DNA from: Pseudogemmobacter bohemicus
GTDB taxonomy: Bacteria > Pseudomonadota > Alphaproteobacteria > Rhodobacterales > Rhodobacteraceae
Assembly: GCF_003290025.1 (NCBI RefSeq)
Contig: NZ_QNHG01000008.1
Span: forward strand, 95,847-159,846
Length of the DNA: 64,000 bases
Direction of reading: 5' to 3'
Shown: positions 8,332-36,506 of the stretch, one piece after another
Layout of the letters: every line of letters begins with the position of its first letter
Numbering within the stretch: the first letter of the stretch is position 1
Position numbers and translations under genes: made by a program
Notes under the pieces: model-generated
The model's input: the letters and a program-made list of their open reading frames with translations, nothing else
Databases searched by the model: none
Told to the model about the DNA's origin: nothing

Positions 8332-8350
8332 GCACCTTCGCCCCTATGTC

Positions 8351-8704
8351 TCATATTCCCGCCAGAAGTGTGCCAAGTGCCAGCAGCGCGGGCAACGTCT
8401 GGATGAACAAGATCTTGCTAGTCGCGGTCGCCGCACCGAAAACCCCTGCAACTGCTACACAGATCAGAAAGAACAGTTTGAAAGCCATTCCGGCCGGCCC
8501 CATCACAAGGCCCGTGATAAGCCCCGCTGCCAGAAACCCGTTGTAAAGGCCCTGATTGGCGGCCATCACTTTGGTCTTTGCCGCGAGATCTTCGGTCAGA
8601 TTGAACGCGCGCCGGGCCCTCGGTGTGGTCCAGAGAAACATCTCGATGACCAGAATATAGATGTGAAGCGCGGCGATCAGAGCAATCAGGATATTGGCGA
8701 TCAT
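8351..8704 (-). CDS. DUF1304 membrane protein
   Basis: 117 residues with four predicted transmembrane helices (residues about 3-23, 50-70, 74-94, 98-116) and the DUF1304 signature HIYILVIEMFLW plus ANQGLYNGFLAAGL. The family is integral-membrane and of unknown function. It ends 20 bp from the convergent hydrolase stop and is divergent from the SLC13 transporter. Confidence 0.85.
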   Translation of the reverse strand: MIANILIALIAALHIYILVIEMFLWTTPRARRAFNLTEDLAAKTKVMAANQGLYNGFLAAGLITGLVMGPAGMAFKLFFLICVAVAGVFGAATATSKILFIQTLPALLALGTLLAGI

Positions 8705-9060
8705 GAGCGAATCTCCTTCAGTTTCGGTGTCTCAGACGCATTCTGGGAGGTTTTCCGGACGTATACGATGCAGAGCAATGCTCCTCTGGTACAGATATTA
8801 GGGGCCGCGCGAAAAAAGAGATCCCGTAGATGACCACCTCGACCCAAAGCCGCCGTTCGACCCCGAAAGCTTCTGCGTGACGGCTCCTCGGAAACTTAAG
8901 ATAGATTGGCCCTGCAACAAAGTTGCGGCCGCGATGGTTGCGCTGCGGACGTGCAGTGAAGTCTTGCAAAACTGAGTTGCCATCGCCCTAATGTCGAATG
9001 GAACTTCTGTTATTGGTAGGCGTTTTAGAACATAGTTCCCCACATCCGGGTATCCTCGAC
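8705..9060. other. intergenic region, no gene seen
   Basis: This 356-bp gap lies between divergent genes (DUF1304 and the SLC13 transporter). Short open frames here have no recognisable homology. It presumably carries both promoters. No clear operator or RNA structure was identified. Confidence 0.5.
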
Positions 9061-10839
9061 ATGACCATGCCTCAGATCGCGGCATTCGCCATCATCATCG
9101 GTATGATGGCGCTCTTCATCTATGGGCGGTTGCGCTATGATGTGGTTGCAATGGTCGCGCTGGCAGCATCGGTGGCGGCAGGGACGGTGGCACCGGAGAA
9201 CGCATTCAGCGGCTTCAGCGACGATATCGTCATCATTGTGGCCAGCGCGCTTGTCGTCAGCGCGGCCGTATCGCGCTCCGAGCTTATCGAAATGGCGCTG
9301 CGCTGGCTGGTGCGGAAGCTGTCGCGCTTCCAGATTCAGCTTGTGGTGCTGATCGGCTCGGTGACGGTCCTGTCTGCGCTGATCAAGAACATTGGTGCAT
9401 TGGCGATGATGATGCCTGCGGCGCTGAAGATGGCGAAGAAATCCGGCAATTCGCCCTCGCTCTATCTGATGCCGATGGCCTTCGGTTCGCTCTTGGGCGG
9501 TCTGATCACTCTGGTCGGAACGTCGCCCAACATCATTGTCAGCCAGCTTCGCGAACAGATGACCGGCACGCCGTTCCGCATGTTCGACTATGCGCCGGTC
9601 GGCCTTGGGCTTTCGCTTGTCGGGCTCATCTTCCTGGTCTTCGCATCCCGTTTTCTGCTGCCGTCAGACCGGCGCGCGACCGCATCGCTGGGTGAGGCGG
9701 TCAATATCAGCGATTACAACACCGAGGCCCGGGTCGATGCGGCCTCCGCCCTGTGCGGGAAAACCATTGGCGAGTTCCTCAGCCTTGCAGATGGGGAGGT
9801 CACCGTTACTGGGGTAATCAGGGACAAAAAGCGGCGGGCAGTGACGCTTTCGGATTCAAAGATCGAGACCGGGGATATCCTGCAACTCCGCGGCCAGCCG
9901 GATAGCCTGGAGCGCGCGGTCACAAAGGCGGGTTTTGTCTTGGCGCGTCAGGATGAGCCAGCACGCGGCGATGCCCCAGCTGGCAAGATCGGCGTGATCG
10001 AGGCGGTCATGAAGGTGGATTCGGCGCTGATCGGCCAGACCGTCAAACGGGTGCATCTCTTCGATGAGCATGGCGTCAATCTGATCGCGATCTCACGCTC
10101 TGGCCAAAGGATGACGGCTCGGCTCTCAGAGACGGTTCTGGCGCCGGGTGATGTGATGCTGTTGCAGGGCCCTCTGGAAAGTCTGGGCGAGCGGATGCAG
10201 GCGCTCGGCCTCTTGCCGCTCGCGGAGCGCGAGATGCGGCTTGGCTCAGTCCGGCGGGATATCTTGCCGGTGCTCATCCTTGCGGTAGCGATGGGGGCGA
10301 CTGCGTTTGGGCTGGTGCCGGTGGCCATCGCCTTCTTCGGTGCGGCACTGGCGATGATCCTGACCGGGGCGATCAGCCCGGAGGCGGCCTATCAGGCGAT
10401 TGAGTGGCCGCTCCTTGTGATGCTCGGCGCGCTGATCCCGGTCAGCGAGGCCATGCAGACCACCGGTAGCACGGAACTGATAGGGGATATGCTCTCCTCG
10501 ATGGCGACGGGGCTTCCGGCATGGGGCGCGGTGGGATTGATCATGATGGTCGCAATGGCCGTGACGCCGTTTCTCAACAATGCTGCGACCGTCCTGGTCA
10601 TGGCACCGATTGCGGCGATTTTTGCGGAACGCCTGGGCCATGCCCCCGATGCCTACCTGATGGCGGTGGCGGTCGGGGCTGGGTGTGACTTCCTGACCCC
10701 CATCGGCCATCAGTGCAACACGCTGGTGCTGGGCCCAGGCGGGTATCGGTTTAGCGACTACGCGCGGCTTGGCGCGCCGCTGTCTCTGCTGGTCGTAGCG
10801 GTCGGGGTGCCGCTAATACTGCTCACCTGGCCGGTCTGA
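9061..10839 (+). CDS. SLC13/DASS-family permease with two TrkA-C domains
   Basis: About 592 residues from ATG 9061. N-terminal helices (residues about 5-180) carry the DASS signature FGSLLGGLITLVGTSPNII. Two TrkA_C/RCK_C regulatory domains follow (residues about 215-290 and 300-385), then a second helical half with the matching TPFLNNAATVLVMAP and CDFLTPIGHQCNTLVLGPGGY. The family moves anions such as sulfate or dicarboxylates, coupled to Na+ or H+. The TrkA_C subtype is often annotated as a sulfur or C4-dicarboxylate transporter. The ribosome site is weak, so an upstream start at 8998 cannot be excluded. Confidence 0.85.
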   Translation: MTMPQIAAFAIIIGMMALFIYGRLRYDVVAMVALAASVAAGTVAPENAFSGFSDDIVIIVASALVVSAAVSRSELIEMALRWLVRKLSRFQIQLVVLIGSVTVLSALIKNIGALAMMMPAALKMAKKSGNSPSLYLMPMAFGSLLGGLITLVGTSPNIIVSQLREQMTGTPFRMFDYAPVGLGLSLVGLIFLVFASRFLLPSDRRATASLGEAVNISDYNTEARVDAASALCGKTIGEFLSLADGEVTVTGVIRDKKRRAVTLSDSKIETGDILQLRGQPDSLERAVTKAGFVLARQDEPARGDAPAGKIGVIEAVMKVDSALIGQTVKRVHLFDEHGVNLIAISRSGQRMTARLSETVLAPGDVMLLQGPLESLGERMQALGLLPLAEREMRLGSVRRDILPVLILAVAMGATAFGLVPVAIAFFGAALAMILTGAISPEAAYQAIEWPLLVMLGALIPVSEAMQTTGSTELIGDMLSSMATGLPAWGAVGLIMMVAMAVTPFLNNAATVLVMAPIAAIFAERLGHAPDAYLMAVAVGAGCDFLTPIGHQCNTLVLGPGGYRFSDYARLGAPLSLLVVAVGVPLILLTWPV

Positions 10840-11067
10840 CCAAGATAGCCACGCTTACAGTCTGAAGCGCTCGTGTTGAGGATCCCCGATCTCGGCTTCT
10901 GCTGCGACGCCCCAATTCGACGCAACCCATATGGCGGGATTTCCGCAAACAGCTCGGCGCTCGGGTGGGCCAACATCGGCCCTTGGACGAAGCCGCTCCG
11001 CGGCATTGGCGCCCTTGGTGAGGGTTCAGCGATGATATGAGCCGCGTGCATTTGTATGCGGGCATTT

Positions 11068-11105
11068 CTGTCTGACGATTGGGGACTTTCCCCTTCATCA
11101 GACAG
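11068..11105 (+). promoter_or_regulatory. stem-loop overlapping RBS of recombinase gene
   Basis: A perfect 8-bp inverted repeat, CTGTCTGA (11068-11075) and TCAGACAG (11098-11105), is separated by 22 nt. The second arm runs directly into the AGGAGG Shine-Dalgarno of the recombinase at 11115. It could be a translational control hairpin, or part of the origin end of the IS91-like element. The preceding 10840-11060 shows no gene. Confidence 0.5.
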
Positions 11106-11114
11106 GAGGTTTCC

Positions 11115-12002
11115 ATGACGGAGGAACGAACCACTCCGCTGCGCCAGCGGATGATCGAAGACATGCGCATCCGTGGCATGGGCGAGAAGGCCCAGCAAGC
11201 GCACATCCGTGCCATCAAGGATTTCGCGGCCTTTCTTGGGCATTCGCCTGATACGGCCACGCGCGAGGAACTGCGGGCCTATCAGTTGCACATGACCGAC
11301 ACCGGCGTCACGCCGTCGACGTTCAATGTGCGGATCGTGGCACTCAGGTTCTTCTTCGGCATGACCTGCGGGCGCGAGGATATGAAGCGGTTCATGCAGT
11401 TCAGGACCGAGCCGCGCAAACTGCCGGTAGTGTTCAGCGTCGAGGAAGTCTCCGACATCCTGATGGCGGCGCCTGGACCGGGGCTGAAGTATCGCGCCGC
11501 GCTGAGCATTTCCTACGGCGCGGGACTGCGCGCAGCCGAGGTCTGCAACCTGAAGATCGGCGATATCGACAGTGACCGGATGCTGATCCATGTCGAGCAG
11601 GGAAAGGGGAGGAAGGATCGCAAGATGATGTTATCGCCGGGCCTTCTGAACCTGCTGCGCGACTGGTGGCGTGAGGCACGGCCAGAGGGCTGGTTGTTTC
11701 CAGGCAAGCCGAAGATCAACCCGATCTCGCCGCGCCAGCTGAACCGGGCCTTCACGTCCGCCAGGCACATGGCCGGGATCAGCAAACCGGCGACATTGCA
11801 CACGCTGCGCCACAGCTTTGCTACGCATCTCCTGGAGGCGAACACCGATGTCCGGGTGATCCAGGTTTTGCTCGGCCATGCCAAACTGACAACCACAGCG
11901 CAATATACCCATGTCGCCACCAAGACGATCCGCGATGTTGTCAGCCCCTATGAGATGCTGGCGAAGCTGCAGGATCAGACCGTTAAGCGAAGCCTAGAGT
12001 GA
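11115..12002 (+). CDS. tyrosine recombinase associated with IS91-type element
   Basis: 295 residues with AGGAGG upstream. It has an N-terminal SAM-like core-binding domain (residues about 10-90) and a catalytic domain with R in SYGAGLRAAEV, the H-x-x-R box HTLRHSFATHLL, the second-H region LLGHAKLTTT and the nucleophilic tyrosine in AQYTHV. It sits 12 bp upstream of an IS91-family transposase in the same direction, a two-gene arrangement found in many alphaproteobacterial IS91-like elements. It probably helps resolve or integrate the element. Confidence 0.85.
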   Translation: MTEERTTPLRQRMIEDMRIRGMGEKAQQAHIRAIKDFAAFLGHSPDTATREELRAYQLHMTDTGVTPSTFNVRIVALRFFFGMTCGREDMKRFMQFRTEPRKLPVVFSVEEVSDILMAAPGPGLKYRAALSISYGAGLRAAEVCNLKIGDIDSDRMLIHVEQGKGRKDRKMMLSPGLLNLLRDWWREARPEGWLFPGKPKINPISPRQLNRAFTSARHMAGISKPATLHTLRHSFATHLLEANTDVRVIQVLLGHAKLTTTAQYTHVATKTIRDVVSPYEMLAKLQDQTVKRSLE

Positions 12003-12014
12003 CCGGCGCCGGGT

Positions 12015-13214
12015 GTGACCCGGCTGGGGCTGGAGATCGCTGACATCTTCCGCGCCCATGGTCCTGCGTGGCGACAGGCCAATGCGGGGCACGTCAGCCT
12101 GCCCCAGCTCAGGGTGATGTCGGCCATCGAGGCCTGCCGGACCGAGGCACTCGGCGGGCATGTGGCGGGCTGTGCCAAATGCGGCTACCACCATATCGCT
12201 TACAACTCCTGCAAGAACCGGCATTGCCCGAAGTGTCAGGGATCCGCAGCACGCGACTGGATGGCGGCGCGCGCCGAAGACCTGCTGCCCGTGGAGTATT
12301 TCCACGTCGTCTTCACCCTGCCGGCCGAGATCGCGCAGATTGCATTCTGGAACAAGAAGGCGGTGTATGACCTGCTGTTCCGCGCCTCGGCCGAAACGGT
12401 CATGACCATCGCGGCCGACCCAAAGCGGCTGGGTGCCCGTGTCGGCATGACCAGTGTGCTGCACACCTGGGGATCAGCACTGACACATCATCCCCACATC
12501 CACATGATCGTCCCGGGCGGCGGCCTGTCACCCGAAGGCGCTCGCTGGGTGCCTTGCCGCCCGGGCTTCTTCCTGCATGTGCGGGTTCTGTCACGGCTGT
12601 TCCGGCGCCTGTTCATCGAGGGGCTGTGCGCACTGCATCGCGCAGGCGCGCTCAGCTTCTTCGGCGACATGGTCAGGCTGGGGGACGGCGCGGCCTTCGC
12701 CGCCTGGCTGACCCCATTCCGCAGATCTGAATGGGTGGTCTATGCCAAGCCGCCCTTCGGAGGACCCGAGGCCGTGCTGGCCTATCTGAGTAGATACACG
12801 CACCGGGTGGCGATCTCGAACAGCCGCCTGGTCAGTGTCGATGCCCATACCGTCACCTTCCGCTGGAAGGACTATCGCATCAAGCAGGGCGACCGGCGAT
12901 CGGTCATGCGCCTGGCCACCGGCGAGTTCATCCGTCGCTTCCTGATCCACGTCCTGCCTGATGGCTTCCACCGCATCCGGCACTACGGCCTGCTGGCCAG
13001 TTCGGCCCGCAAGATAAACATCGCGAAGATTCGCGCCTTGCTCGGCGTCCGGCAGCCTGAACAGGTCACCGTGCCGGAACCCCGGACCGATATCGTCCCA
13101 TTCACCCTGCGCGAACCATGTCCCTGCTGCGGCGGCCCCATGCGCATCGTCGAGATATTCCGCCGAGGGCAGACACCGATGTCGCGGGCCCCACCGAGGG
13201 AGCGGGCCGCATGA
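12015..13214 (+). CDS. IS91-family HUH transposase
   Basis: 399 residues from GTG 12015. The N-terminal zinc finger is C-x2-C...C-x4-C-x2-C (CAKCGYHH, CKNRHCPKC; residues about 53-75). The HUH motif HPHIHMIVPGGG and a tyrosine-bearing helix YLSRYTHRVAISN define a Y2-type rolling-circle transposase of the IS91 group. A second CPCCGG zinc motif lies near the C-terminus. It appears intact. The upstream tyrosine recombinase is likely part of the same element. Confidence 0.9.
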   Translation: MTRLGLEIADIFRAHGPAWRQANAGHVSLPQLRVMSAIEACRTEALGGHVAGCAKCGYHHIAYNSCKNRHCPKCQGSAARDWMAARAEDLLPVEYFHVVFTLPAEIAQIAFWNKKAVYDLLFRASAETVMTIAADPKRLGARVGMTSVLHTWGSALTHHPHIHMIVPGGGLSPEGARWVPCRPGFFLHVRVLSRLFRRLFIEGLCALHRAGALSFFGDMVRLGDGAAFAAWLTPFRRSEWVVYAKPPFGGPEAVLAYLSRYTHRVAISNSRLVSVDAHTVTFRWKDYRIKQGDRRSVMRLATGEFIRRFLIHVLPDGFHRIRHYGLLASSARKINIAKIRALLGVRQPEQVTVPEPRTDIVPFTLREPCPCCGGPMRIVEIFRRGQTPMSRAPPRERAA

Positions 13215-13960
13215 CATATAGCCTGTCATCCGTAGAAAATAGCGGCTGTGCCTCGCAGACCCGGCCAAGTCCGCATGCGCCTATCGCCCCCTGGCGCGCC
13301 ACACGGCAGCAACCACGGCGCAACCAGCAGCTTTCTCGGAAGCATCGACCAAGTTTGCGCCCTTCTCAGGCGCTATGCGCACCTTCAGCCGCCCTCCCTG
13401 ACCCAGCCGCTGCCACGCCCGTCCGCGCACTTTCCCCATAGGGTGATCCTAGACCCCCGCGGCTTCCTCCTTGGGAGGTTTTCCAACGCGGGTCGTGGTC
13501 GCATATCGATGCAACCGTTACGCCGCGACCCGCATCAGAAAACCTTCACCTTAGCTGCCGGTCGACCTCGATCGATGCTGCTTCGCCGCGTTCTCCAAAG
13601 CCGCCGTTCGGCCTCCGCGGCGACACCGAGCAAGTGGCCATTCAAACAGCGCGCAGCAGGGTGCCGCGTATTTGTCCTGAGCGGAAGTGAAGCCGGATGT
13701 GTGCGTTGCGGCACCGCACCTGAGACGAACCCGAGAGGCGGACGTCGGTGCGCGGCGCAGCGAACGCTGTGGTCATGGGCTTGTGAGGGTCGGCGTGCAG
13801 CCTCGTGGCATACGTCGTTGAGCATGCGGAAATCAGCAATGGCTACCTTCCGTGAACGCCACTGCTATAGACCCAAAATCGCTTGGCAACGGGTTTACGA
13901 TTGATGTATTTTATGAGACCGCACCCGCGTGGCGCGCTCTTATATAGATGGAAATCGCTA
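13215..13960. other. IS91 3' flank, no gene supported
   Basis: This 746-bp stretch has open frames on both strands with compositions and sequences unlike real proteins. It contains an inverted repeat GCGGGTCG (13488-13495) / CGACCCGC (13526-13533) and a CCTCC-TT-GGGAGG hairpin near 13467. These could belong to the terminus end of the IS91-like element. No element boundary could be fixed. Confidence 0.4.
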
Positions 13961-14023
13961 GGGTCAGGACCCATTGATTGTGCTTTTGTTCGGTGATTCA
14001 GAAGGTGTCAGGAGACCCTTCTG

Positions 14024-14371
14024 ATGAGCAATCTTTTCTGGCTGACAGACGCGCAGCTGGCGCGGCTTGAGCCCTTCTTCCCCAAGAGCCATGGCCGTCC
14101 GCGGGTGGATGACCGCCGCGTTCTGAGCGGCATAATTTTTATCAATCGCAATGGGTTGCGCTGGTGCGATGCCCCTCGTGAGTATGGCCCGCCCAAGACG
14201 CTCTATAATCGCTGGAAGCGCTGGAGCCGGATGGGGGTGTTCACCCGAATGATGCACGGACTGGCGTCGGAGGCTGCCGACGAGAAGACCATCATGATCG
14301 ATGCGACATACCTGAAAGCTCATCGCACGGCCTCCAGCCTGCGGGTGAAAAAGGGGGGCGTGGTCGCCTGA
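14024..14371 (+). CDS. IS427-group transposase, first frame
   Basis: 115 residues: an N-terminal DUF4096-like DNA-binding part (WLTDAQLARLEPFFP, GRPRVDDRRVLSGI, NGLRWCDAPREYGP) followed by the first catalytic D in IMIDATYLKAHRTA. The frame stops soon after a slippery A5G6 run (14348-14358). A -1 shift there joins it to the second frame and gives the full DDE transposase. Confidence 0.85.
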   Translation: MSNLFWLTDAQLARLEPFFPKSHGRPRVDDRRVLSGIIFINRNGLRWCDAPREYGPPKTLYNRWKRWSRMGVFTRMMHGLASEAADEKTIMIDATYLKAHRTASSLRVKKGGVVA

Positions 14372-14391
14372 TCGGGCGCACAAAGGGTGGT

Positions 14392-14781
14392 ATGAATACC
14401 AAGCTTCACGCCGTTGCTGATGCCCAAGGTCGCCCGATCAGCCTGTTTGTCACAGCCGGTCCGGTCAGCGACTACAGCGGAGCCGCTGCTCTGCTGCGCA
14501 GCTTTCCAAAGGCAGAGTGGATGCTGGCGGATCGGGGATACGACGCCGATTGGTTCAGGGATGCGTTGAAAGACAAGGGCATAAGCGCCTGCATCCCGGG
14601 GCGGAAAACCCGCAAGAAGAAAGTTCGATACGACAAGCGCCGCTACAAACGCCGCAACCGCATCGAGATCATGTTCGGCAGGCTCAAGGATTGGCGACGA
14701 GTTGCAACCCGATACGACAGGTGCCCCATTGTCTTCCTCTCGGCCATAGCTCTCGCTGCAACCGTCCTCTTCTGGCTCTAA
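14392..14781 (+). CDS. IS427-group transposase, second frame
   Basis: This is the C-terminal catalytic half. The -1 frame is open from the A5G6 run and contains GRTKGGMNTKLHAV; the internal ATG at 14392 is probably not used alone. The second D is in MLADRGYDADW and the E in NRIEIMFGRLKDWRR with ATRYDR following, completing the DDE set. The product is expected only as a frameshift fusion with the preceding frame. Confidence 0.85.
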   Translation: MNTKLHAVADAQGRPISLFVTAGPVSDYSGAAALLRSFPKAEWMLADRGYDADWFRDALKDKGISACIPGRKTRKKKVRYDKRRYKRRNRIEIMFGRLKDWRRVATRYDRCPIVFLSAIALAATVLFWL

Positions 14782-15010
14782 AGTTAATGAGTCTAGAGCC
14801 TAGGTGTCTCGACGAAGATGCCTAGCTCGCCCTGCTTTAGGATGAAGGCCGTCTGCGCCTCTCCCAGCCCAGAAAGGATAGCAGGGAAGCCCAGCTTCAA
14901 ATGGTCCAGCTTTCAGGGGCCGAGCAGCTAAGAATGACTCTAATTTTAGTCTACATGCGGTTATTCTGTGAGGTGAAGCATCAATATGAGCCAAGTCAGA
15001 AAGGTATGCC

Positions 15011-15643
15011 TTGTCCGAGCATGAGTATTCAGTCGTCGGCCATAGCCGATCCAAGATTGGCATGTACATTGCATTCTTCGCAGGAACGATTGCTGGTGCC
15101 TTGGCTACTGGCGCGGGGTTTATCATGACTATCGCGCAGGATGCAGGTTACCTGAGTCTTCCGGAGATAGTCTTCTGGCCCGTCACAGGAGCCGCAGTAT
15201 TCGCGACGATGTTCTTTGTTTTCGATAGGTTTGGTTGGCGCTGGAAGGGAGTTCGCGCCGCTGTTGGCATTCCTGATGTTTCAGGAACCTGGTTGCTTGA
15301 AGGCCTTTCCTATGACCAGGATCATCAGCCGAAATGGCAATGGTCAGGTCAGGTCGAGATCACCCAGAAATACGAGAAGATTTTCGTGTGCCTCCGCACA
15401 GTACAGAGCGGATCACAAAGCATCTCGGCGGCTCTGGTCCCTGAGGGCCGCCGGTACAGGCTCATCTATAGTTACAGAAACCAGCCGAAACCGGGAGAGC
15501 CGGAGCTTCAGGCCCATATAGGCCACTGCGAACTCCTGTTCGAACCTGACCTTCAGACAGCGGAGGGCAGCTATTTCAACGGCGGCGGCCGCTTCACGCA
15601 TGGAACCATGAATTTGAAGAGGAGCGTGCCTAATGCCGCGTAA
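15011..15643 (+). CDS. cap15: Cap15-like CBASS membrane effector
   Basis: 210 residues from TTG 15011, with AGAAAGG about 10 nt upstream; an in-frame ATG at 15062 is the alternative. Two transmembrane helices (residues about 16-40 and 50-72) precede a soluble beta-rich domain (about 89-205: VSGTWLLEG, SGQVEITQKYEKIFVCLRT, LIYSYRNQP, GSYFNGGGRFTHG). This is the S-2TM-beta architecture of Cap15, whose beta-barrel binds a cyclic nucleotide and whose membrane part oligomerises to disrupt the inner membrane. It overlaps the CD-NTase start by 11 nt, supporting the pairing. Assignment is by architecture and context. Confidence 0.75.
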   Translation: MSEHEYSVVGHSRSKIGMYIAFFAGTIAGALATGAGFIMTIAQDAGYLSLPEIVFWPVTGAAVFATMFFVFDRFGWRWKGVRAAVGIPDVSGTWLLEGLSYDQDHQPKWQWSGQVEITQKYEKIFVCLRTVQSGSQSISAALVPEGRRYRLIYSYRNQPKPGEPELQAHIGHCELLFEPDLQTAEGSYFNGGGRFTHGTMNLKRSVPNAA

Positions 15644-16757
15644 TTTTGATGATCGACTTGCGCGTTTGCGTATGCGCCGGATGGACGATCAGAACATTGT
15701 TCTTAACTCCCAAGGTTTTGGTGAGGCTTACGAGAAACGCGCGACAAGCAAGGCGACGAAGTATGCCCTCGGTGCGATGCAGGAGGTTGATCCTCGCTCC
15801 ACCCAGATTTCGCACGAAGAAGCCGAGAAGGTTGAGCGAAACCTGAAAGAAGGCCTTTCCTCAGAAGGGCTGTATCCCGCCTTCCGGCTTCAGGGTTCGG
15901 TTCCCCTGAATGTCCATATCCGTGGCGTCAGTGATGTGGACCTGCTCGTTATCGAAGGTGTCTGCCTTCACCGGCAATACTGTGAAGGAAGCTTGAAATC
16001 ATACCTTCCGTATTCAGGCGTCGGTTCGGTGACCGACGACGTCCTGCTTCTCAGAGCAAAATCAGAAGAGGTCTTGGAACGCCGCTTCTGGGGAGCGACT
16101 GTCGACAGGACGCCGGCTAAATCCATTCAGCTTTCGGATGGTGCCTTTCGACGCAAAGTCGATGTGGTCCCATCGAACTGGTTTGACACGGCAACCTATC
16201 AGCGGACGCTTGAAGAAGCGCAGCGCGGCGTTGAGATCGTCAACAAGTACACGCGCGAGCACATCACCAACTATCCTTTCATCTATATCGCCGAAATCAC
16301 TGCCAAAGCCCGCCAGACCAACGAGGGGGCCCGTATGGGTATCCGATTGGCCAAGAATGTTAAGAACGATGCAGACGTCGAAATTGCGCTCAGCAGCTAC
16401 GACATCGGAAGCCTGATCTACCATTGTCCCAATCACTACATCACGCATCTGGTCGCACGGGACCTGATGATTCTGTCGGGTGTCGAGCGCTGGTTCGATG
16501 AATTGTCTCGTGATCATACTCGCGCGACTTCCCTCATGACGCCGGATGGAACGCGGCGCATCTTGAATGACGTTGCAAAATGGGAGGGTCTTGTGAAGCT
16601 GTCCGGTGAACTGACCAGCTTGGCTCAGGCCGTCGAGAGGGAGCTTGCGAGCCCCTATGACTTTACGCTTCCAGATCGTGATATGCTCCGTAAGAGATTG
16701 AACGATAACTCAATCCCCCTGGCGCCGGAATTTATCGGCGGTGGCATTCGGTTTTGA
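15633..16757 (+). CDS. CBASS CD-NTase (cGAS/DncV-like nucleotidyltransferase)
   Basis: 374 residues from ATG 15633. The nucleotidyltransferase core has the G-S motif in RLQGSVPLN (residues 88-89), the metal-binding D-x-D in VSDVDLLVI (D101, D103) and the third carboxylate in KVDVVPSNW (D177). A C-terminal helical domain follows. It would make a cyclic oligonucleotide on phage infection to activate the Cap15-like effector. The clade cannot be fixed by eye; CdnB or CdnE are plausible because those occur with Cap15. No Cap2/Cap3 or HORMA/TRIP13 genes flank it, so this looks like a short type I arrangement apart from the third gene. Confidence 0.8.
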   Translation: MPRNFDDRLARLRMRRMDDQNIVLNSQGFGEAYEKRATSKATKYALGAMQEVDPRSTQISHEEAEKVERNLKEGLSSEGLYPAFRLQGSVPLNVHIRGVSDVDLLVIEGVCLHRQYCEGSLKSYLPYSGVGSVTDDVLLLRAKSEEVLERRFWGATVDRTPAKSIQLSDGAFRRKVDVVPSNWFDTATYQRTLEEAQRGVEIVNKYTREHITNYPFIYIAEITAKARQTNEGARMGIRLAKNVKNDADVEIALSSYDIGSLIYHCPNHYITHLVARDLMILSGVERWFDELSRDHTRATSLMTPDGTRRILNDVAKWEGLVKLSGELTSLAQAVERELASPYDFTLPDRDMLRKRLNDNSIPLAPEFIGGGIRF

Positions 16758-16781
16758 AAAGCACCATTGAAAGCGGACCCA

Positions 16782-17777
16782 ATGTTCAAGAATCTTCAAC
16801 GGGAGCTCGAAAGGCTTGGACGGATGAAAGAAATACCCGTCCCTATCAAGCTTGATGCCGAAGGGTATCTCGACAAGGAATGCCCTTCCGAGCCATGCCT
16901 TTTCCTCTTCAAGATTTATGGTGAAGACTGGTCGAACATCGTTCGAGACGAAGAGGTGTTCTGTCCATCCTGCGGGCATGTAGCTCCTGCCAAGTCGTGG
17001 TATCCTAGGGCGCAGGTAGAGGCTGCCCGAGATTACGCACTCGGTACGATCACCAACTCTATGAACAAGGCGATGAGAGCGGACGCGGCGGCGTCGAAGC
17101 GCCGCCAGAACCGCAACTCCTTCCTGAGTATCACCTTGGACGTGAAAGGCGGACGGGACGCCGTACTTGTGCCAGTAGCAGCTGCGGAGCCGATGCGGCT
17201 GCGTACATCCTGCGAGAGCTGCGGTTGCCGCTATTCCTACGTTGGCGCTGCATACTTCTGCCCGAGCTGTGGAGCGAACTCTGCAAGCCATACCTTCACG
17301 CAAACCTTGAACACGATCCGCACCGCCGCAGGGCTTGGCAAAACCCTGCGGAACACGCTCGGTCCCGATGATGCCGAGGTGATGTTCCGAACGCTTCTGG
17401 AGAAGGCCATCCAAGACACGGTAATGTCGTTCCAAAGGTTGAACGAGCAGCTATATGAGCGTCAGAGCGGAAAGACGGCTCGCCGCAATGCCTTCCAGAA
17501 TCTCGATGCGGGGTCGGACTTGTGGAAGGCTGAGATTGGGTACGCCTATGTCGATCTGATCGGGCAGGCCAAGCTTGACCAGCTCAAGGTTTACTTTCAG
17601 CAGCGCCATCTTCTCGCGCATCAGCAGGGAATCGTAGATCAAGACTACATTGATCGAAGTGGCGACAAGACCTACGCCCGAGGGCAACGCCTTCTAATCC
17701 GAGATTCCGCGGTACGAGAGTTTGCCGACCTGATCGAAGAACTCAGCCACGAGCTGACGAAGAAGGCAGGGCCCTAA
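16782..17777 (+). CDS. zinc-ribbon protein with HEPN-like motif, CBASS operon
   Basis: 331 residues from ATG 16782 (a TTG at 16767 is possible), 24 bp after the CD-NTase. Numbering from 16767: a first four-cysteine ribbon (C39, C44, C66, C69; FCPSCGH), a second ribbon (C149, C152, C165, C168; SCESCGC then FCPSCGA), then a helical C-terminal half with R280-x4-H285 in QQRHLLAHQQGIVDQDYI. R-x4-6-H followed by G-I-V-D is the hallmark of HEPN ribonucleases. I infer a second effector or regulator of the CBASS operon. It matches no family I can name, and the RNase role is inference from the motif only. Confidence 0.6.
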   Translation: MFKNLQRELERLGRMKEIPVPIKLDAEGYLDKECPSEPCLFLFKIYGEDWSNIVRDEEVFCPSCGHVAPAKSWYPRAQVEAARDYALGTITNSMNKAMRADAAASKRRQNRNSFLSITLDVKGGRDAVLVPVAAAEPMRLRTSCESCGCRYSYVGAAYFCPSCGANSASHTFTQTLNTIRTAAGLGKTLRNTLGPDDAEVMFRTLLEKAIQDTVMSFQRLNEQLYERQSGKTARRNAFQNLDAGSDLWKAEIGYAYVDLIGQAKLDQLKVYFQQRHLLAHQQGIVDQDYIDRSGDKTYARGQRLLIRDSAVREFADLIEELSHELTKKAGP

Positions 17778-17950
17778 TCAGTTGAGTATTGGCCGCTGAA
17801 CTCAGCATAGCAGACCTTCATCTGCGGTCTGACCACCGTCCGCGATGCAGATGTTTCAGACTTTCATGCGATGCGCATCGAACGTCCGCTTTCCGCCCTT
17901 GTCGACATTTTCCTACACAGGAAACCTAGGGAATCAGTCCACCTTCCACT

Positions 17951-20146
17951 CTATGCCGCCCAAACTTGGTTGAGGATCCTGGCCGCGATCTCGGCCTTGT
18001 CCTGAGGCAGGAAGCGCCCGTAATGCTGCGCGACCATCTCTGGCGTATCCTGGATGGCATAGCTGGCCTGCTCGTAGGATCCTGTCTGCTTCAGGATGTG
18101 GGTGGCGAGAACGTCCCGCACATTGTGTGGCCCATGGGGCAGCAATCCCTCGATGGCTCCCTTGCCCGTCCACGGATTGTAGATCCCATAGCGCTGGATC
18201 GCGGTGCGCCAGGCCTCGTAGAACGTGTTCTGGCCGTATGCCGCGTCGGTGCTCGTTCGTTTCGCCGTCTTGACGAAGAAAGTCCCGGGATCAACCGCCT
18301 CGCCGATCAGTCGTTGCCGATGACGCTCAAGCCATGCATCGATCATTTCATAGAGCCGACCGAGGTCGGGCAGGATCAGCCGAAACGGTTTGGACCCGAA
18401 GAACGACGAATTCGCATTCTTGAACGCGATGGCGGGGATCAGAATCTCCCAGCCCTGGTCGCGCGTGCTCCAGCGCAACTCACCGCGTTTCATGTCCTCC
18501 AACCGGCGCTCGGAGGTCGGCAGGCCACCACGGACGCAAAGCATCAGCTCACGAAGGTTCTTCTGCCGCAGACCGGTGTGCATGCCGATGCGCAGGAGCA
18601 GGAAGGTTCTGACCGCTTCAGCAGCCGCTCGCGGATGCAACTCTTCGTCGGGGAGGCGCTGAAGGATCTCCTCCGTGATCTTCCGATACTCGCCGACCGG
18701 GCTTGGTGCCTCCAGCACGGGAAGGATCGGCTCGAACGGGTCCCGATGAATACGCGCTACCCTGTCGATCTCCTTCGTGCGCCGCCGGGCATGTTTATAC
18801 ATCCGCTCGCATGTGCCGCCCCAATCTGCTCGCGCCGCAGCAATGTCGTCTGCCGAGATCAATCCCTCGATCACAACCAGATGGTCTGCCAGGCTTGGCA
18901 TCTGACGCAGCCATCCGGTCTCTTCCCGGCAAAAGGCAGCCGCGATCGACAGCAGGTCGATTTCCCATTTAGTGTAGAAGCCCCGCCGGCGCTCCCGCCA
19001 TTGCAGATACCAGTCCCAGACCTGAGGAAAAACCATCATCGCGAAGGTGAGGCTATGGGGGTCGGCGCCGAAGCCATGGACCTCGCTTTCCACCGGAGCG
19101 GCAAAAGCCCCGAACCACAGCCCGAAATGATCCACCTTCTGCGTAGCGGTTTCGTCGCCCCATACCCCGTTCCGCTGCAGGCCGAATGCTGCAAAGGTTG
19201 CGGTCTTGAATCGCAAGAGCGCCGCCATCTCTTCATTCAGTCGCGCGGGCGCTTCGACAATCCCGGCCGTATCGCTCGTCGCGGGGGGCAGCTTACGCCG
19301 CGGGCCTGCGGCACAGGCGAAACGAACGGCATAGCGCTGACGCATCATAACCGCCTGATAGCGCCGGTAATCAGTCGATCCGCTGACAATCACCCGGCGC
19401 ACCCATTCGACAATCTCGACCTGTTCCGCCCGTGACTTGCGGTTGAAATCTTCCGGCAAGTGCCATGCCAGCCGTCGGCGCTCTGCCGGTGTCACATCGT
19501 GCAGGATGAAGTCACCCGGGGCGCGCTCAGCCCCTCCCCGCATGCTGGCGAAATATCCTTCCGGAAGCCGATAACGTCGCTCGATCCGCCTGAGGATTTC
19601 CAGGCTGATCGCAGATCGTGGCGCTTTCTTGCCTTTGCCCCAGGAGATCAGAGTACTGCGGTGAACCCCGTCCTCCGGTCGCACCACAGCACTATAGAGG
19701 TGATAGGTGGTTTCGCCATGACGCACGGCGTGCAGCCGAAGCGCTTCACCGAAACTGCCCGGCTCATCCCATGTCTCGTTCAGCGGCTCTGGAAATTCCT
19801 CGATGGGACGCGGCTTTCTGCCCGCATTCGGGTGAGGCCGCCGGACTCGGGGCGCCTTCGGCGGGCGAAGGCGCTGCTCTGTCACTTCGCGCGATACGGC
19901 ATCAAAGATCGGTTTGAGCAGGGCGCGCACTGCGGAGAGATCACTGGGCTCCATGTCCAAAGATTCTGCCACCGCCCGGAGATCCAGGATACTGCCGCGA
20001 TAGGGCGGATACTCACCGCGCCCCAAGAATGCGGTCAGGTAGCGGCAGAGGCTTTTGACCTGGTCTGGCGGCAAAACCGGCCCCAGCCTCAGGTCACAAT
20101 ACTCCTGAACCCTTTGCGCGGTCAGTGTCGAATGTCTTGATGTCAT
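17951..20146 (-). CDS. large tyrosine recombinase/integrase-like protein
   Basis: 731 residues, about twice a normal phage integrase. The first 230 residues include an HTH-like stretch (STLISWGKGKKAPRSAISLEILRRI). The C-terminal 250 residues have tyrosine-recombinase features: R in HTGLRQKNLREL, H-x2-R in GPHNVRDVLATHIL, and the terminal tyrosine in MVAQHYGRF. Such large site-specific recombinases are often seen at edges of genomic islands. It reads toward the CBASS operon from the opposite strand, ending 170 bp from it. Its own mobile element was not delimited. Confidence 0.7.
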   Translation of the reverse strand: MTSRHSTLTAQRVQEYCDLRLGPVLPPDQVKSLCRYLTAFLGRGEYPPYRGSILDLRAVAESLDMEPSDLSAVRALLKPIFDAVSREVTEQRLRPPKAPRVRRPHPNAGRKPRPIEEFPEPLNETWDEPGSFGEALRLHAVRHGETTYHLYSAVVRPEDGVHRSTLISWGKGKKAPRSAISLEILRRIERRYRLPEGYFASMRGGAERAPGDFILHDVTPAERRRLAWHLPEDFNRKSRAEQVEIVEWVRRVIVSGSTDYRRYQAVMMRQRYAVRFACAAGPRRKLPPATSDTAGIVEAPARLNEEMAALLRFKTATFAAFGLQRNGVWGDETATQKVDHFGLWFGAFAAPVESEVHGFGADPHSLTFAMMVFPQVWDWYLQWRERRRGFYTKWEIDLLSIAAAFCREETGWLRQMPSLADHLVVIEGLISADDIAAARADWGGTCERMYKHARRRTKEIDRVARIHRDPFEPILPVLEAPSPVGEYRKITEEILQRLPDEELHPRAAAEAVRTFLLLRIGMHTGLRQKNLRELMLCVRGGLPTSERRLEDMKRGELRWSTRDQGWEILIPAIAFKNANSSFFGSKPFRLILPDLGRLYEMIDAWLERHRQRLIGEAVDPGTFFVKTAKRTSTDAAYGQNTFYEAWRTAIQRYGIYNPWTGKGAIEGLLPHGPHNVRDVLATHILKQTGSYEQASYAIQDTPEMVAQHYGRFLPQDKAEIAARILNQVWAA

Positions 20147-20343
20147 CTTCTTGCTTCCATCTATCGCGGGCCGATCGGGCTAGCGGAAGCGCGGGATGTG
20201 CAAAAGGCTGCCTGCGAAAGGTGACCCGCGTCGGCCTGAACCCGTGCTGGCAGCATGGCGGATCAAGTCTGACTTGTGCAGGCGGCTATGTGGTCAGAAC
20301 CGGCAGACCGATCCGATGGAGAGCGACATGTGCAACCGAACCA

Positions 20344-21573
20344 TCACTGCGCCAAGCGCAGCGCAACCTCCATCTGCTCGTGCTCGAACGCCGCCGTGTA
20401 TGCTGAAGCTGCGGCGCCCCTCATGCCCTGGCTCTGGAAGTGCGCACGCCACTGCTTTGAGATCCCATCGGCAAGGTCACGCGCCAGATGACGCGCTTCG
20501 TCCACGGAGATCTCAAAGAAGGGGGCGGCTTCCACGGCAGCGTCCACCGAGGGCTCAAAGCCGCTCAGCGGGCTGATCCCGGTTTCCATCTGCGGCTGGC
20601 GCCGCGCCTGCGCATTGATGTCGAAGGCGGGAGAAAGCCGCCATCGATTGTCCCGGACATAGAGGAAGCCGTGGTTCTTCAGGTGATCGTCGGTGTTGTT
20701 CACCAGGATCGAGAAGACCATCCGCCGCCAGAGCTCGCGCAGATCGGCCAGCGCGTCGACCGAGATCTCGCGGATCACATCGGCGATGTCAGTATAGTAG
20801 CCGGGCGTTACGCCCTGCACCTGCAGTGCCGTCCGGGCCGAAATATAGGGAATGCGCCCGTGCCCCCGGCGGTCAAAGCGACGGATCAGCGCCACCGGCG
20901 CCTCGCTGCGCGGCAGCGCGAGCTCCGCCACTGCAGTATTCAGCCCGAGCGCACGGCCAAGGTTGAGGATCGCCACTTCGGCGCGCTCCACCGGCCAGGT
21001 GTCGCCCACGGCGGTGAACTTGGCGATCCAGAGCTGATCGCCGTCAATCACATTCGCCTTGGGTCGCGCGCCCCCCAATGATCCCCCTGCCCCGGCCAGA
21101 ATGCGTGCTTCCTCGGCCGCGCCGAGCGGGTCACGCTCATAGCGCGCGGCAATCGCGCGGATCTCCTCGATATCCAGCCGCCGCGGCACCGGATCGGTCA
21201 TCTGGGACAGCGGCTGCATCCGCTCATCCAAAAACCGCAGCGCACCTTGCCGGGTGACATCATCCGAGCGCACCAGATAATCGAACTCGGACAGCCCTTC
21301 GCCAAGCGTGCGGGCCATCAAACGGCGGCCCCAGCTGTCTGGCGCCGCATCTGCCAAGGCACCCGGCAAGGCATCCCGCGCATCAGCCTGCCCGCTGGCA
21401 TGGATCGGGCCTGGGCCGAGCGGCAGACCCGGGGCCAGAGCGAAGGCCCCGGCATTGCGCAGCCAGCCGGGGCTGTAGAGGAAAGTCGAATGCTGACGGC
21501 GGCCATCGCTTTCGAAATGCAGCCGCCCGACCTCGATCTTCTGCTCCCCGAGCGCGACGATGGCTTCCGGCAT
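20344..21573 (-). CDS. hipA: HipA-family serine/threonine kinase toxin
   Basis: 409 residues. It has an N-terminal HipA_N-like couple domain and the kinase core GGSLGGARPKANV (P-loop-like), followed by the catalytic and metal-binding ILVNNTDDHLKNHGFLY and the DFG-equivalent LSPAFDIN. HipA kinases phosphorylate aminoacyl-tRNA synthetases (GltX in E. coli) and cause growth arrest. Its start overlaps the stop of the upstream XRE gene, giving a classic hipBA operon. Confidence 0.88.
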   Translation of the reverse strand: MPEAIVALGEQKIEVGRLHFESDGRRQHSTFLYSPGWLRNAGAFALAPGLPLGPGPIHASGQADARDALPGALADAAPDSWGRRLMARTLGEGLSEFDYLVRSDDVTRQGALRFLDERMQPLSQMTDPVPRRLDIEEIRAIAARYERDPLGAAEEARILAGAGGSLGGARPKANVIDGDQLWIAKFTAVGDTWPVERAEVAILNLGRALGLNTAVAELALPRSEAPVALIRRFDRRGHGRIPYISARTALQVQGVTPGYYTDIADVIREISVDALADLRELWRRMVFSILVNNTDDHLKNHGFLYVRDNRWRLSPAFDINAQARRQPQMETGISPLSGFEPSVDAAVEAAPFFEISVDEARHLARDLADGISKQWRAHFQSQGMRGAAASAYTAAFEHEQMEVALRLAQ

Positions 21574-21935
21574 CAGAAGGCCGTCCCTTCGTCGCTGTCC
21601 TGGCCATTGACCTGCGGGGTGGCAGTGCCCGTCACTGGTTTGCGGCCCCGGCCGATCCGCTTGGGCAGATTGGCATGGTCGATCATCAACCCGGTGTCGT
21701 CACTGGCAGGATCCAGCAACCGCTCGAGTCGCGGCAGCTCACCGAGCGCCAGAAGTGCCATGGCGAGTGTTTCGAGCCGGGTGCCGGGCTCGCCCTTTTC
21801 CAGCCGGATCACGGTTCCCTCGGCCACGCCGATCCGCGCCGCGAAATCCTTCACCGGGATGCGGCGCTTCTTGCGGGCGACCTGTATGTCCTGCCCCAAC
21901 TGGCGCAGAACTTTCTCGACACGAAGGGAGGACAT
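21573..21935 (-). CDS. hipB: HipB-like XRE antitoxin
   Basis: 120 residues. The XRE helix-turn-helix (GQDIQVARKKRRIPVKDFAARIGVAEGT region, residues about 12-65) is followed by a flexible tail. It neutralises HipA and represses the operon. It overlaps hipA by one base. An inverted repeat just upstream (21947-21972) is a likely operator. Confidence 0.85.
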   Translation of the reverse strand: MSSLRVEKVLRQLGQDIQVARKKRRIPVKDFAARIGVAEGTVIRLEKGEPGTRLETLAMALLALGELPRLERLLDPASDDTGLMIDHANLPKRIGRGRKPVTGTATPQVNGQDSDEGTAF

Positions 21936-21946
21936 CCTTCACTTCT

Positions 21947-21972
21947 CTATGTTATGGTATTTCCATGCATAG
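21947..21972 (-). promoter_or_regulatory. candidate HipB operator
   Basis: An imperfect inverted repeat, CTATG-N2-ATGG and CCAT-N-CATAG, lies in an AT-rich patch 11 bp upstream of the antitoxin start. Position and symmetry fit autoregulation by a HipB dimer. A second AT-rich half-site-like run (CATCAAAATATGG) follows it. Confidence 0.5.
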
Positions 21973-22039
21973 CATCAAAATATGGATGTTTAAATGCCGA
22001 ATGAGTGGCCGGCAGGAGGAGTGTGCCCGCCTCAGGCTG

Positions 22040-22291
22040 TCAGCCGGCTTCGACGCGATAGCCACGCCGTTGCTTTGCGGTGACCAGCTTCGTCAAAGCC
22101 GCCTGAGCCTCCTCCGCATGCTCAAAGGTCTCAAGCATCAGCCGGCCCGGCCCGCCGATGCGCCCCCAACGCCGCACCACCGATACCCCGCCAAACAGGG
22201 TCGGCTGGATTTCCGCCGCATAAAAGCGGCGCATGTTGCGCTCGGGGGTCGATCCGCTGAAGGTGAACGGGCTCATCCATGGTAGGAGCAT
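22040..22291 (-). CDS. WGR-domain protein
   Basis: About 83 residues if started at ATG 22291; the reading frame extends to 22366. A single WGR domain is visible: NMRRFYAAEIQPTLFGGVSVVRRWGRIGGPG, then a helix with EEAQAALTKLVTAKQRRGY. Stand-alone WGR proteins are common on alphaproteobacterial plasmids and are thought to bind nucleic acid. No partner gene is adjacent. The start is uncertain because no strong ribosome site is seen. Confidence 0.75.
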   Translation of the reverse strand: MLLPWMSPFTFSGSTPERNMRRFYAAEIQPTLFGGVSVVRRWGRIGGPGRLMLETFEHAEEAQAALTKLVTAKQRRGYRVEAG

Positions 22292-22640
22292 CGCATCAAT
22301 GTCCACTCTACGTCCAACGACAGTTTGGAATCCTGTTGCCCGAAGCGATTCACAACCCTGATGCAACGCCCTTGGTCGGCCATCGGCTCACATGCCGGTA
22401 TCAACGGGTACTATGATCATCCCCAGATCAGCTCAGGGAGAGCGGCTGCGAGCGGCCGACCGAGTAGGGCGCGGTCCGGGAGGGGCCAAGATCCAGAGCA
22501 TCAGATCAACAGACTCGGTTGGCAGGAAGGGTGTCGCAGAGACTTGGAGCCAGCCTCAATCAAGGTTTCCCTTGAATGCTTCAGTTCAAAAATGAAAAAG
22601 TGCCTCAACCACTGAACTATTGAGACCGGCGGAGCATACG

Positions 22641-23222
22641 TTGATTGAGCTGAAAATCGAACTTGTTGGCATCCAACCACCCGTCTGGCGCCGGATAGTC
22701 GTTCCGAATGACATCACCTTGGACATCCTGCATTCCGTGCTCCAGGGCGCTATGCCTTGGCAAGACTATCATTTGCATGAGTTCGAGATTGGCGAGGACA
22801 GGTTCGAGGCCCGCGACGAAAGTGACGACAGCTGGGACCCAAACGATGGCCGGAAGGACGAGAAGGGGTTTGCGCTCGGGAAACTGGTCAAGAAGGGCAG
22901 TCAGTTCACATACACTTATGACTTCGGCGATGGTTGGAGGCATCTCGTAACCGTCGAGAAGGTTGGCAAACTGGCCGGAAGACCAGATCAGGACTTTCCT
23001 GCCTGTGTTGCCGGAGCGCGCGCGTGCCCGCCAGAGGACAGTGGAGGGCCTTACTCTTACGATGATTTTGTCGACGCATTGACCGACAAAGACCACCCGG
23101 AACATCGTGGTACAAAGCAATGGGCGGGCGCGTTCGAACCGGAAGTGTTCAGCGTACAGCAAGCCAATGCCGCCGTCGGTGCGATGTTTGTTTGGGCAAA
23201 AGAACGTCGCGACCGAAGGTGA
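22641..23222 (+). CDS. plasmid pRiA4b ORF-3-like protein
   Basis: About 193 residues from TTG 22641, chosen for GGCGGAG 6-13 nt upstream; the frame is open from 22620. It has the family pattern IELKIELVGIQPPVWRRIVVP, HLHEFEIG, TYTYDFGDGWRH and PPEDSGGPYSYDDFV. The family is common on rhizobial and related plasmids and near IS1096 relatives. Its biochemical role is unknown. Here it follows the WGR gene on the other strand and precedes a patch of gene debris. Confidence 0.8.
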   Translation: MIELKIELVGIQPPVWRRIVVPNDITLDILHSVLQGAMPWQDYHLHEFEIGEDRFEARDESDDSWDPNDGRKDEKGFALGKLVKKGSQFTYTYDFGDGWRHLVTVEKVGKLAGRPDQDFPACVAGARACPPEDSGGPYSYDDFVDALTDKDHPEHRGTKQWAGAFEPEVFSVQQANAAVGAMFVWAKERRDRR

Positions 23223-23234
23223 AGCTAGCCATGT

Positions 23235-23385
23235 TCACAAATGGCGGAGCCATCGCCTGATGCAGGCTATGTTAACGAAGCCGCGGAAACTGCCTGCGGC
23301 CCTGTCATATCGAGTTGCCAGCCGACGGCTGTTCTTGAGCTTGTTGAAGCAACGCTCGACCATGTCGCGTGGCGTGTAGAAGCGT
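23235..23385 (-). pseudogene. IS5-family transposase C-terminal remnant
   Basis: Reading the minus strand from about 23385 gives FYTPRDMVERCFNKLKNSRR, then LATRYDRAAGSFRGF and a stop at 23235. This is the last 50 or so residues of an IS5-group transposase, including the E of the DDE motif. The rest of the element is missing. Confidence 0.7.
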
Positions 23386-23544
23386 GATTTCTATGCCTCC
23401 GTAGTGCGGAACCTGGAAGAGAACGCCGAGGTCTCTCCGAAGGGTGTCTTCATTTTCATGCACGAGAACGAATACTCCGACCGGAGTATCGAAAATAGCG
23501 TATTCGCCATTGCCCTAGCCCAACAGCGCGGCACCGATAGCTAA
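23386..23544 (+). pseudogene. tautomerase-family C-terminal remnant
   Basis: An open frame without a start, DFYASVVRNLEENAEV then SPKGVFIFMHENEYSD, ends at TAA 23544. The spacing and pattern resemble the C-terminus of tautomerase/MIF-like small enzymes. The 5' part is replaced by the IS5 remnant exactly where homology begins, so the gene was cut by that insertion and later deletion. Confidence 0.45.
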
Positions 23545-23802
23545 ACGTTGGCCCCTTTTCCGAGGCCGTGATAATGCGCTGCGCCTTCTGCTAGCTGCCC
23601 ACCGCCGCCGCGTTTTCCTCACCATAGCAAGGAATGCTGCGAATACGGCAGAGAAGTTGCATCGGCCGGGGCAATAGAGGCTAAAGCCCGATCGGGGTGG
23701 CATCCAGTCTTCAAGCATGCGGATCAGGCAGCCTACGGCAATGTCGTCCGCCACGTCCTGCTCATGGATGAATGTCACCCCGGTGCCTTTCAGCACTGCC
23801 AT
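23515..23802 (-). pseudogene. LysR regulator C-terminal remnant
   Basis: The segment AVLKGTGVTFIHEQDVADDI, then CLIRMLEDWMPPRSGFSLYC and PGRCNFSAVFAAF, matches the end of a LysR effector domain (the usual V-LEDW-P-P...YP-R pattern). There is no DNA-binding domain upstream. With the tautomerase fragment it suggests a former regulator/enzyme pair that has decayed. Confidence 0.6.
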
Positions 23803-23843
23803 GCGGGCAGTTGCCGCTTCCCCACCGGCCTGTCGGCCGCAAA

Positions 23844-24020
23844 CTAAAGCGCATAAAGCGATTGAAGCAGTGCAAGCCCGGCAGCACGGTCAAGCGCGAC
23901 CCCAAAGCTTGTCGGGTCAAATGCGTCATCCTTACCGACCAACACCACGTATGATCGCAGGTCTTCCTTCAACCTGCATTCCCCAAGTGGCGTGTCGTTT
24001 GAGGTGAAGATCGCCTGTAT
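23844..24020 (-). pseudogene. unidentified coding remnant
   Basis: The last about 58 codons of this frame (ARIQAIFTSNDTPLGEC, then LRSYVVLVGKDDAFDPT and a stop at 23844) look protein-like, but I do not recognise them and no start or upstream domain is present. The sequence lies between the LysR remnant and an IS1380 transposase. It is recorded as a possible fragment only. Confidence 0.25.
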
Positions 24021-24193
24021 CCGAGCGCTAGACAAGGATTTTCTGCCGCAAGCGGCACCTGCGGTCGCGCAGACTGCTGGATCTGGACGGATCAGACCGC
24101 GAAGCCGCTGTTTCCTTGCCCAGGGGCGGCGTTTTTCAGCGCAGCGGACAGATCTGTCCAGCCGCTTTCGTTCAGTTTGAGCGTGGATCGCGA

Positions 24194-25549: not shown

Positions 25550-25603
25550 GAAACGCGCCCCTCGCAGCCTTCAACACCATGTTTTATATAGGAAATATAA
25601 TGG

Positions 25604-27309: not shown

Positions 27310-27340
27310 CAAAAACGACACTATCAGTGCTAATGTTAGC
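27302..27340 (-). promoter_or_regulatory. operator-like inverted repeat over AbiE-like start
   Basis: A perfect 8-bp inverted repeat, GCTAACAT (27302-27309) and ATGTTAGC (27333-27340), overlaps the start codon. A related half-site GTAGTGTTAAAC follows at about 27347-27358. The layout suits repression by the winged-helix protein encoded downstream. Confidence 0.55.
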
Positions 27341-27422
27341 AATCAATAGTAGTGTTAAACTAAAGTATCACAGATCATAAACCGAATTCGACAGTCAACC
27401 TGAGAGCCGTTTAGCGGCTAGC

Positions 27423-36130: not shown

Positions 36131-36506
36131 CGCGTGACCCGACCCATTGACCACAAAACGTCCGGATCCTAGGTCAAAGCGATTCTCTCTGCATCCTGGC
36201 TACCTGCACCACAAGCTGTTAGGTGCCATAGCTGCACCACTACCAGTGGTACAAGCGCGATCTAAGCGACCCTTCTTACTCAGGCGTTTCTATTTTAATT
36301 TCAAGATCTTGAGGTCCAATGGGAAACCTCAAGTTAGCAGTACTGATGCTGCGCGACCTAACACTCCGCAGAAAAAGTTTGCCAAGGCGCTACTTGCGTG
36401 GCAATCGTTCGACTACAGCGGAAATCCCAACTGTTGCCATTCTTGGCATATTTCTCTATTTTCCGCGCAGCACGACAAGAGCCGCACACCGGCCAACGAG
36501 GGCAGC
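36131..36506 (+). promoter_or_regulatory. repABC upstream region
   Basis: This 376-bp stretch has no convincing gene. The repA frame is open through it from 36147, but homology begins only at 36507. It is relatively AT-rich near 36290-36310 and contains the inverted repeat ACCACT-ACC-AGTGGT (36236-36250), a candidate RepA/RepB operator. The repABC promoter is expected here. Confidence 0.5.

Follow-up and report, generated by a model that had tools for sequence, protein, structure and literature searches.

A zinc-ribbon protein with a predicted HEPN domain, encoded 3' of a two-gene Cap15 CBASS in Pseudogemmobacter bohemicus, looks like a portable add-on

The 64,000-nucleotide stretch of Pseudogemmobacter bohemicus DNA analysed here (the window) carries three same-strand open reading frames at positions 15011-17777, where the preliminary description had placed them. 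They encode Cap15, a two-TM beta-barrel CBASS effector (15011-15643, plus strand), a CdnE-like CD-NTase cyclase (15633-16757, plus strand) and a protein that joins zinc ribbons to a putative HEPN domain (16782-17777, plus strand), which we refer to as ZH. The Cap15 frame begins with TTG downstream of an in-frame stop at 14987 and overlaps the CD-NTase frame by 11 nt, and the ATG of ZH at 16782 lies 24 nt past the CD-NTase stop. An alternative TTG start of ZH at 16767 is also open; given that four close relatives start at an aligned MF, the ATG is the likely start.

The proposal that the first gene encodes a 2TM-beta, Cap15-like effector is borne out by matches to Pfam PF18153 (E 1.2e-31), to the PADLOC 2TM effector model (1.6e-73, residues 1-205 of 210) and to the nearest solved chain in the PDB, that of Cap15 7n34 (6.4e-27 over residues 85-204); the TM part has a weak Pfam match to PF23471 (E 0.031) that lies below the cut-off. 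An AlphaFold2 model built from 6 sequences (mean pLDDT 78.6) has helices at residues 13-45 and 52-73 and eight strands between residues 92 and 204, with pLDDT values of 55-72 in the helices, 83-94 up to residue 190 and 75-76 beyond. The expected beta-barrel was thus checked on the model, and its eight strands leave the Cap15 identity standing.

The CD-NTase matches the PADLOC cyclase model PDLC00772 (2.9e-124); its nearest solved relative is 6wt9 (1.2e-24) and the next is the STING-associated CdnE 6wt8, with no Pfam family at E 1 and NCBIfam matches far under their cut-offs. Its catalytic residues are intact, as had been noted: G88-S89, D101-x-D103 and the third Asp, D177, are invariant across 10 aligned sequences. 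CBASS is described as a cyclase and an effector, with type-specific ancillary genes. With a cyclase carrying GS, DxD and the third Asp, and a Cap effector in the same operon, Cap15 and CD-NTase constitute, judged by their PADLOC, Pfam and PDB matches, a normal two-gene type I CBASS, and the locus may have an anti-phage function. The same combination of Cap15 and a clade E cyclase is described, in a passage of PMC10686824, for the two-gene Ssc-CBASS operon of Staphylococcus schleiferi, in which the cyclase product activates a membrane-breaking Cap15, and, in a passage of PMC10442399, for the ClCdnE, EfCdnE and LpCdnE operons as further type I CBASS with Cap15. The window differs from Ssc-CBASS as that passage describes it in having ZH as a third gene. 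The third protein was scanned for the ancillary functions of types II-IV and, in line with the preliminary description, has no E1/E2, JAB, HORMA or TRIP13 match or any other type II-IV ancillary match at E 1 among the PADLOC, Pfam and NCBIfam models; the reading of ZH as one of the known CBASS ancillary genes was accordingly rejected.

The GC content is 0.54 at 15000-16999 as opposed to 0.57-0.66 in the remaining kilobases of 8000-27999. Transposase frames at 14024-14781 carry the label IS5 from reading by eye alone, and a 731-aa frame at 17951-20146 (minus strand), read by eye as a large recombinase, has no Pfam match at E 0.01. Neither promoter-like signals (1 versus a shuffle mean of 1.7) nor terminator-like signals (2 versus 3.0) are in excess at 14700-18000, and repeats that might bound a transposed unit at 13800-18100 amount to weak pairs of 16-27 nt at 70-88%. 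The window has no detected tRNA gene, and 8000-28000 has no Rfam match at gathering score. Further along lies a HipA-like gene (20344-21573; PF07804, 1e-42) immediately preceded by a small frame that is HTH-like by eye; together they span 20344-21935 on the minus strand and are a probable HipBA toxin-antitoxin pair. Because three frames at 36147-40046 (plus strand) resemble, by eye, RepA/ParA, RepB/ParB and RepC, the 169,624-base contig is probably a repABC plasmid.

The two C4 zinc ribbons previously recognised in the third protein are formed by C34, C39, C61 and C64 (16881-16973, plus strand) and by C144, C147, C160 and C163 (17211-17270, plus strand), and none of the eight cysteines varies among the 76 aligned copies, namely that of the window, those of 73 of the 79 genome loci described below and two viral ones. 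Absent from the earlier description is a C-terminal all-helical domain (model residues 185-331; 17334-17774, plus strand) with an R-x4-H motif from R275 to H280 (17604-17621, plus strand). Besides the cysteines, the residues invariant in the 76 copies are Q273, R275, H276, H280, G283, D286 and Y289. In the AlphaFold2 model of ZH (mean pLDDT 81.7, pTM 0.70) the motif lies inside a confident helical domain, with pLDDT 86-96 over residues 201-330 and 76-79 ahead of it. The all-helical bundle and the R-x4-6-H motif of HEPN domains are both seen here, the former as helices across residues 186-329, without a comparison of topology, and the latter as R275-x4-H280 in 76 of 76 copies. Because the motif is invariant and sits in this domain, we read the C-terminal half, on indirect evidence, as a putative HEPN ribonuclease domain. 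The zinc-ribbon half is already a PADLOC candidate: the PDC-M14A model matches residues 17-166 of the window protein (6e-13) and, at E 0.01, the corresponding half of all 76 copies, and no Pfam or NCBIfam family matches the window protein above cut-off, the weak matches being mostly to zinc-ribbon families. PADLOC PDCs derive, according to a passage of PMC12988326, from a guilt-by-embedding approach. The PDC-M14A model has 152 positions and lacks the HEPN-like half of ZH, and its partner PDC-M14B has no match in the P. bohemicus genome at E 10.

ZH is rare: it occurs in 2 of 398 genomes of a phylum sample, P. bohemicus included, and with a looser profile in 8 of 385 genomes of the class, several of them as partial matches. 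A contig scan with five ZH relatives gave 105 relatives, of which the best 80 correspond to 79 genome loci. A CD-NTase adjoins ZH in four of these 79 loci: in Pseudogemmobacter hezensis (L019, where the fetched piece starts within the CD-NTase), Tropicimonas (L022), Rhodovulum (L023) and a Burkholderiales MAG (L044). A profile search of ORFs of at least 70 codons in the 79 loci and in L002-L004, L098 and L099 found no further CD-NTase or Cap15 beside ZH, a count that very divergent cyclases may escape, as the cyclase of L044 escaped single-sequence searches; in 3 of the 79 loci the fetched stretch contains no gene as long as 100 aa upstream of ZH. The preliminary description had included the third gene in the CBASS operon and had named, as a finding that would count against this, homologues occurring mostly without a CD-NTase. 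This is what was found: 75 of 79 loci are without a recognised CD-NTase or Cap15 in the fetched flanks, membership in CBASS is not supported, and a CBASS-specific third gene was rejected. L019, L022 and L023 represent, with the window, one Rhodobacterales cassette, and L044 is an independent assembly in which a CD-NTase (PDLC00801, 4.9e-123) is followed by Cap15 (PDLC00694, 1.1e-67) and ZH, the ATG of ZH overlapping the Cap15 stop by 8 nt. Given that both the CD-NTase and the gene order of L044 differ from those of the window, ZH joined Cap15 and CD-NTase at least twice.

Viewed from the CBASS side, PF18153 has a match in ten of 390 genomes of the order, and ZH lies beside the PF18153 gene in three of the ten (P. 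bohemicus, G1057 and G1071); the other seven have no ZH within about 5 kb, and three of these seven are also without a CD-NTase. In the class sample PF18153 is found in 3 of 385 genomes, and the two besides P. bohemicus are without ZH. CD-NTase relatives occur in 53 plasmid records; among the 40 of these listed, the seven examined have no ZH, and the 40 include none of the 15 plasmid records in which a relative of ZH occurs. ZH is likewise absent from the CD-NTase relatives examined outside Rhodobacterales and from the three of five viral CD-NTase loci examined, the sequence of L114 stopping with the CD-NTase. The closest CBASS relative without ZH, on a Pseudosulfitobacter plasmid that is one of the seven examined (L008:7141-7803), has a different third gene of 220 aa (P0003), which is unrelated to ZH and has no PADLOC or Pfam match at E 0.01. 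On a Klebsiella plasmid (L104:1025-2876), a cap15-like gene beside a related CD-NTase is split by an annotated ISSen4 transposase.

If a close upstream gene is defined as a same-strand ORF, 100 aa or longer, that ends within 60 nt of ZH, such a gene is present in 27 of the 79 loci and absent from 52. Among the 27 are CBASS (4), restriction-modification (7: L041, L042, L052, L054, L060, L082 and L095), CapP or CapH-like genes (3: L046, L067 and L090) and S24 repressors (2: the look-alike loci L068 and L069, of which L068 was scanned), counts that describe a pattern and, having no background rate, not a measured enrichment. Single loci have PIN (L040), DEDDh exonuclease (L096), SEC-C (L070) or HATPase (L097) genes in this position; the upstream gene of L088 has no PADLOC match, and six upstream ORFs, some perhaps not genes, lie outside the label scan (L039, L045, L047, L081, L089 and L094). 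Ten larger or more distant neighbours have PADLOC matches in three cases (L026, L056 and L079) and none in seven. On two ZH plasmids a KAP/PifA-like NTPase (L003) or a PLD protein (L004) is encoded directly upstream, and some of the 7 of 15 ZH plasmid records examined have no such partner (e.g. L002, L005 and L006). In L046 (5750-8014) CapH-like and CapP genes are directly followed by ZH with no CD-NTase recognised, and for this reason the CapH/CapP pair of CBASS regulators may control ZH itself. In L068 (6224-8280), as well as in L069 and partly in L061, an S24 repressor-like gene, ZH and a DUF2188 gene lie in a row, the DUF2188 scan covering L061 only. These two gene orders, CapH-CapP-ZH in L046 and S24-ZH, suggest that ZH has to be tightly controlled.

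Since the immune systems that ZH follows in other genomes are of several very unlike kinds, the gene appears to be a portable addition and not a component of CBASS. We suggest, as the reading that is rather more probable than its converse, that ZH is a separate, portable zinc-ribbon-HEPN RNase effector appended 3' of a normal CBASS. On infection, the cyclase would, by analogy with its relatives, make a cyclic nucleotide that switches Cap15 on, and Cap15 would, by homology, break the inner membrane. ZH would cleave RNA with its HEPN domain and bind nucleic acid or a protein partner through its zinc ribbons, and it would serve as a second line after a block of the first system or damage to DNA. 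Within the separate-effector reading, the chances that this second-line trigger applies are about even. Counting against the separate-effector reading are the lack of a direct HEPN match, the 52 of 79 loci that have no close upstream gene and the seven of ten larger neighbours unmatched in PADLOC.

Possible, if tentative, is the idea that ZH, as one conserved protein, is an interchangeable guard at the 3' end of mechanistically unrelated immune operons and is triggered by a block of the host system. Such a guard would have joined CBASS on at least two occasions, and also restriction systems of type I and type IIG as well as CapHP- and S24-controlled loci; CBASS, too, would then have a PrrC-like back-up. 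As described in a passage of PMC3710099, PrrI keeps PrrC in check until restriction is blocked by a phage, and links to restriction systems are reported for at least 16 HEPN clades. Like ZH in the proposed model, PrrC is a HEPN RNase whose gene accompanies a first-line immune system; it differs in having an ABC-type NTPase N-terminal domain where ZH has zinc ribbons and, according to that passage, in accompanying type I restriction only, whereas ZH accompanies several systems.

Alternatively, ZH could be independent cargo, i.e. a stand-alone defence or toxin gene that came to lie behind CBASS and other operons and only borrows their transcription, without functional coupling. Consistent with cargo, most ZH loci (75 of 79) are without a recognised CBASS, the CapH-CapP-ZH and S24-ZH arrangements could control ZH unaided, and the same DNA occurs alone: ZH by itself is 87-88% identical in L021 (Ruegeria; window positions 16751-17780), L020 (16759-17780) and L033 (16782-17772), where no CBASS was found, the upstream sequence of L033 comprising 321 bases only. 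Moreover, in a codon tree of 16 ZH copies the CBASS-linked copies do not form one clade, at a moderate UFBoot of 81, and a single CBASS-linked clade is unsupported. Against cargo speak the two independent joins to Cap15 and CD-NTase, one with an 8-nt overlap, and the retention of the three-gene unit at 87-88% identity and dN/dS near 0.09. The region 14981-17757 (plus strand) aligns in one 2777-nt blastn match each with L022 (88.0%) and L023 (87.4%) with unlike flanks, L019 is 95.7% identical to the window across 4544 bases, and the 24-nt gap between CD-NTase and ZH is retained in all three. The dN/dS values are 0.088-0.105 for the three genes in comparison with L022 and L023 and 0.091-0.094 for ZH in comparison with unlinked copies; the value of 0.60 for ZH against the near-identical L019, at dS 0.009, reflects too few changes to judge. 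From these substitution patterns all three genes look to be under purifying selection, and we regard uncoupled cargo as unlikely. In L022 the ATG of ZH reads ATA and the next ATG gives a 320-aa ORF. An AAA_21 ATPase gene follows the cassette on the same strand in L023 (8112-9884; 8.4e-22) and, by DNA similarity, in L022 (8168-9886).

A different alternative, which overlaps with the others, concerns the activity of ZH: its zinc ribbons and helical domain would belong to an adaptor, or to a regulator that binds nucleic acid, and not to a HEPN RNase. ZH has no direct HEPN match: phmmer at E 1 finds no solved relative in the PDB, a ZH profile has two weak PDB matches to zinc-binding parts only (best 0.075) and none to HEPN, the 76 copies match no HEPN family among 25 of 58 Pfam families listed, and a profile-profile comparison with six PF18735 sequences is not significant. 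A profile of eight ZH relatives does find L016 (1.3e-9) and L017 (9.2e-7) across the C-terminal domain, and L017 in turn matches PF18735 HEPN_RiboL-PSP (1.3e-4, 22.3 bits, under the cut-off of 28.4); L016 has no Pfam match at E 1. This indirect link, the R-x4-H motif invariant in 76 of 76 copies and the all-helical C-terminal domain of the model argue against an adaptor, which we consider quite doubtful. Finally, that ZH is a dedicated part of CBASS, as a cyclase regulator or as a second effector binding its cyclic nucleotide, is improbable: no CD-NTase was recognised at 75 of 79 loci, the CD-NTase has relatives without ZH, and no known nucleotide-sensor domain was found in ZH (PADLOC, Pfam and NCBIfam at E 1), although the conserved 24-nt gap and the overlap in L044 would fit such a role.

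A passage of PMC12657218 describes Panoptes (OptS/OptE), in which mCpol genes are sometimes linked to HEPN RNases and OptE belongs to the Cap15 family like the effector of the window. The nucleotide-making enzyme is mCpol in Panoptes and a CD-NTase in the window, and a Panoptes identity was rejected, as the partner of the effector matches CD-NTase models and structures. Neither the whole zinc-ribbon-HEPN protein nor a CBASS carrying one was found described in the titles and displayed abstracts that searches of an open-licence library gave.

The distribution of ZH poses the question whether one guard RNase answers the block of different host systems or is mere cargo. The reading of ZH as a separate effector would assign a function to a family of zinc-ribbon proteins that PADLOC so far has only as a candidate and, if true, ZH could constitute a back-up layer shared between immune systems that have been studied separately.
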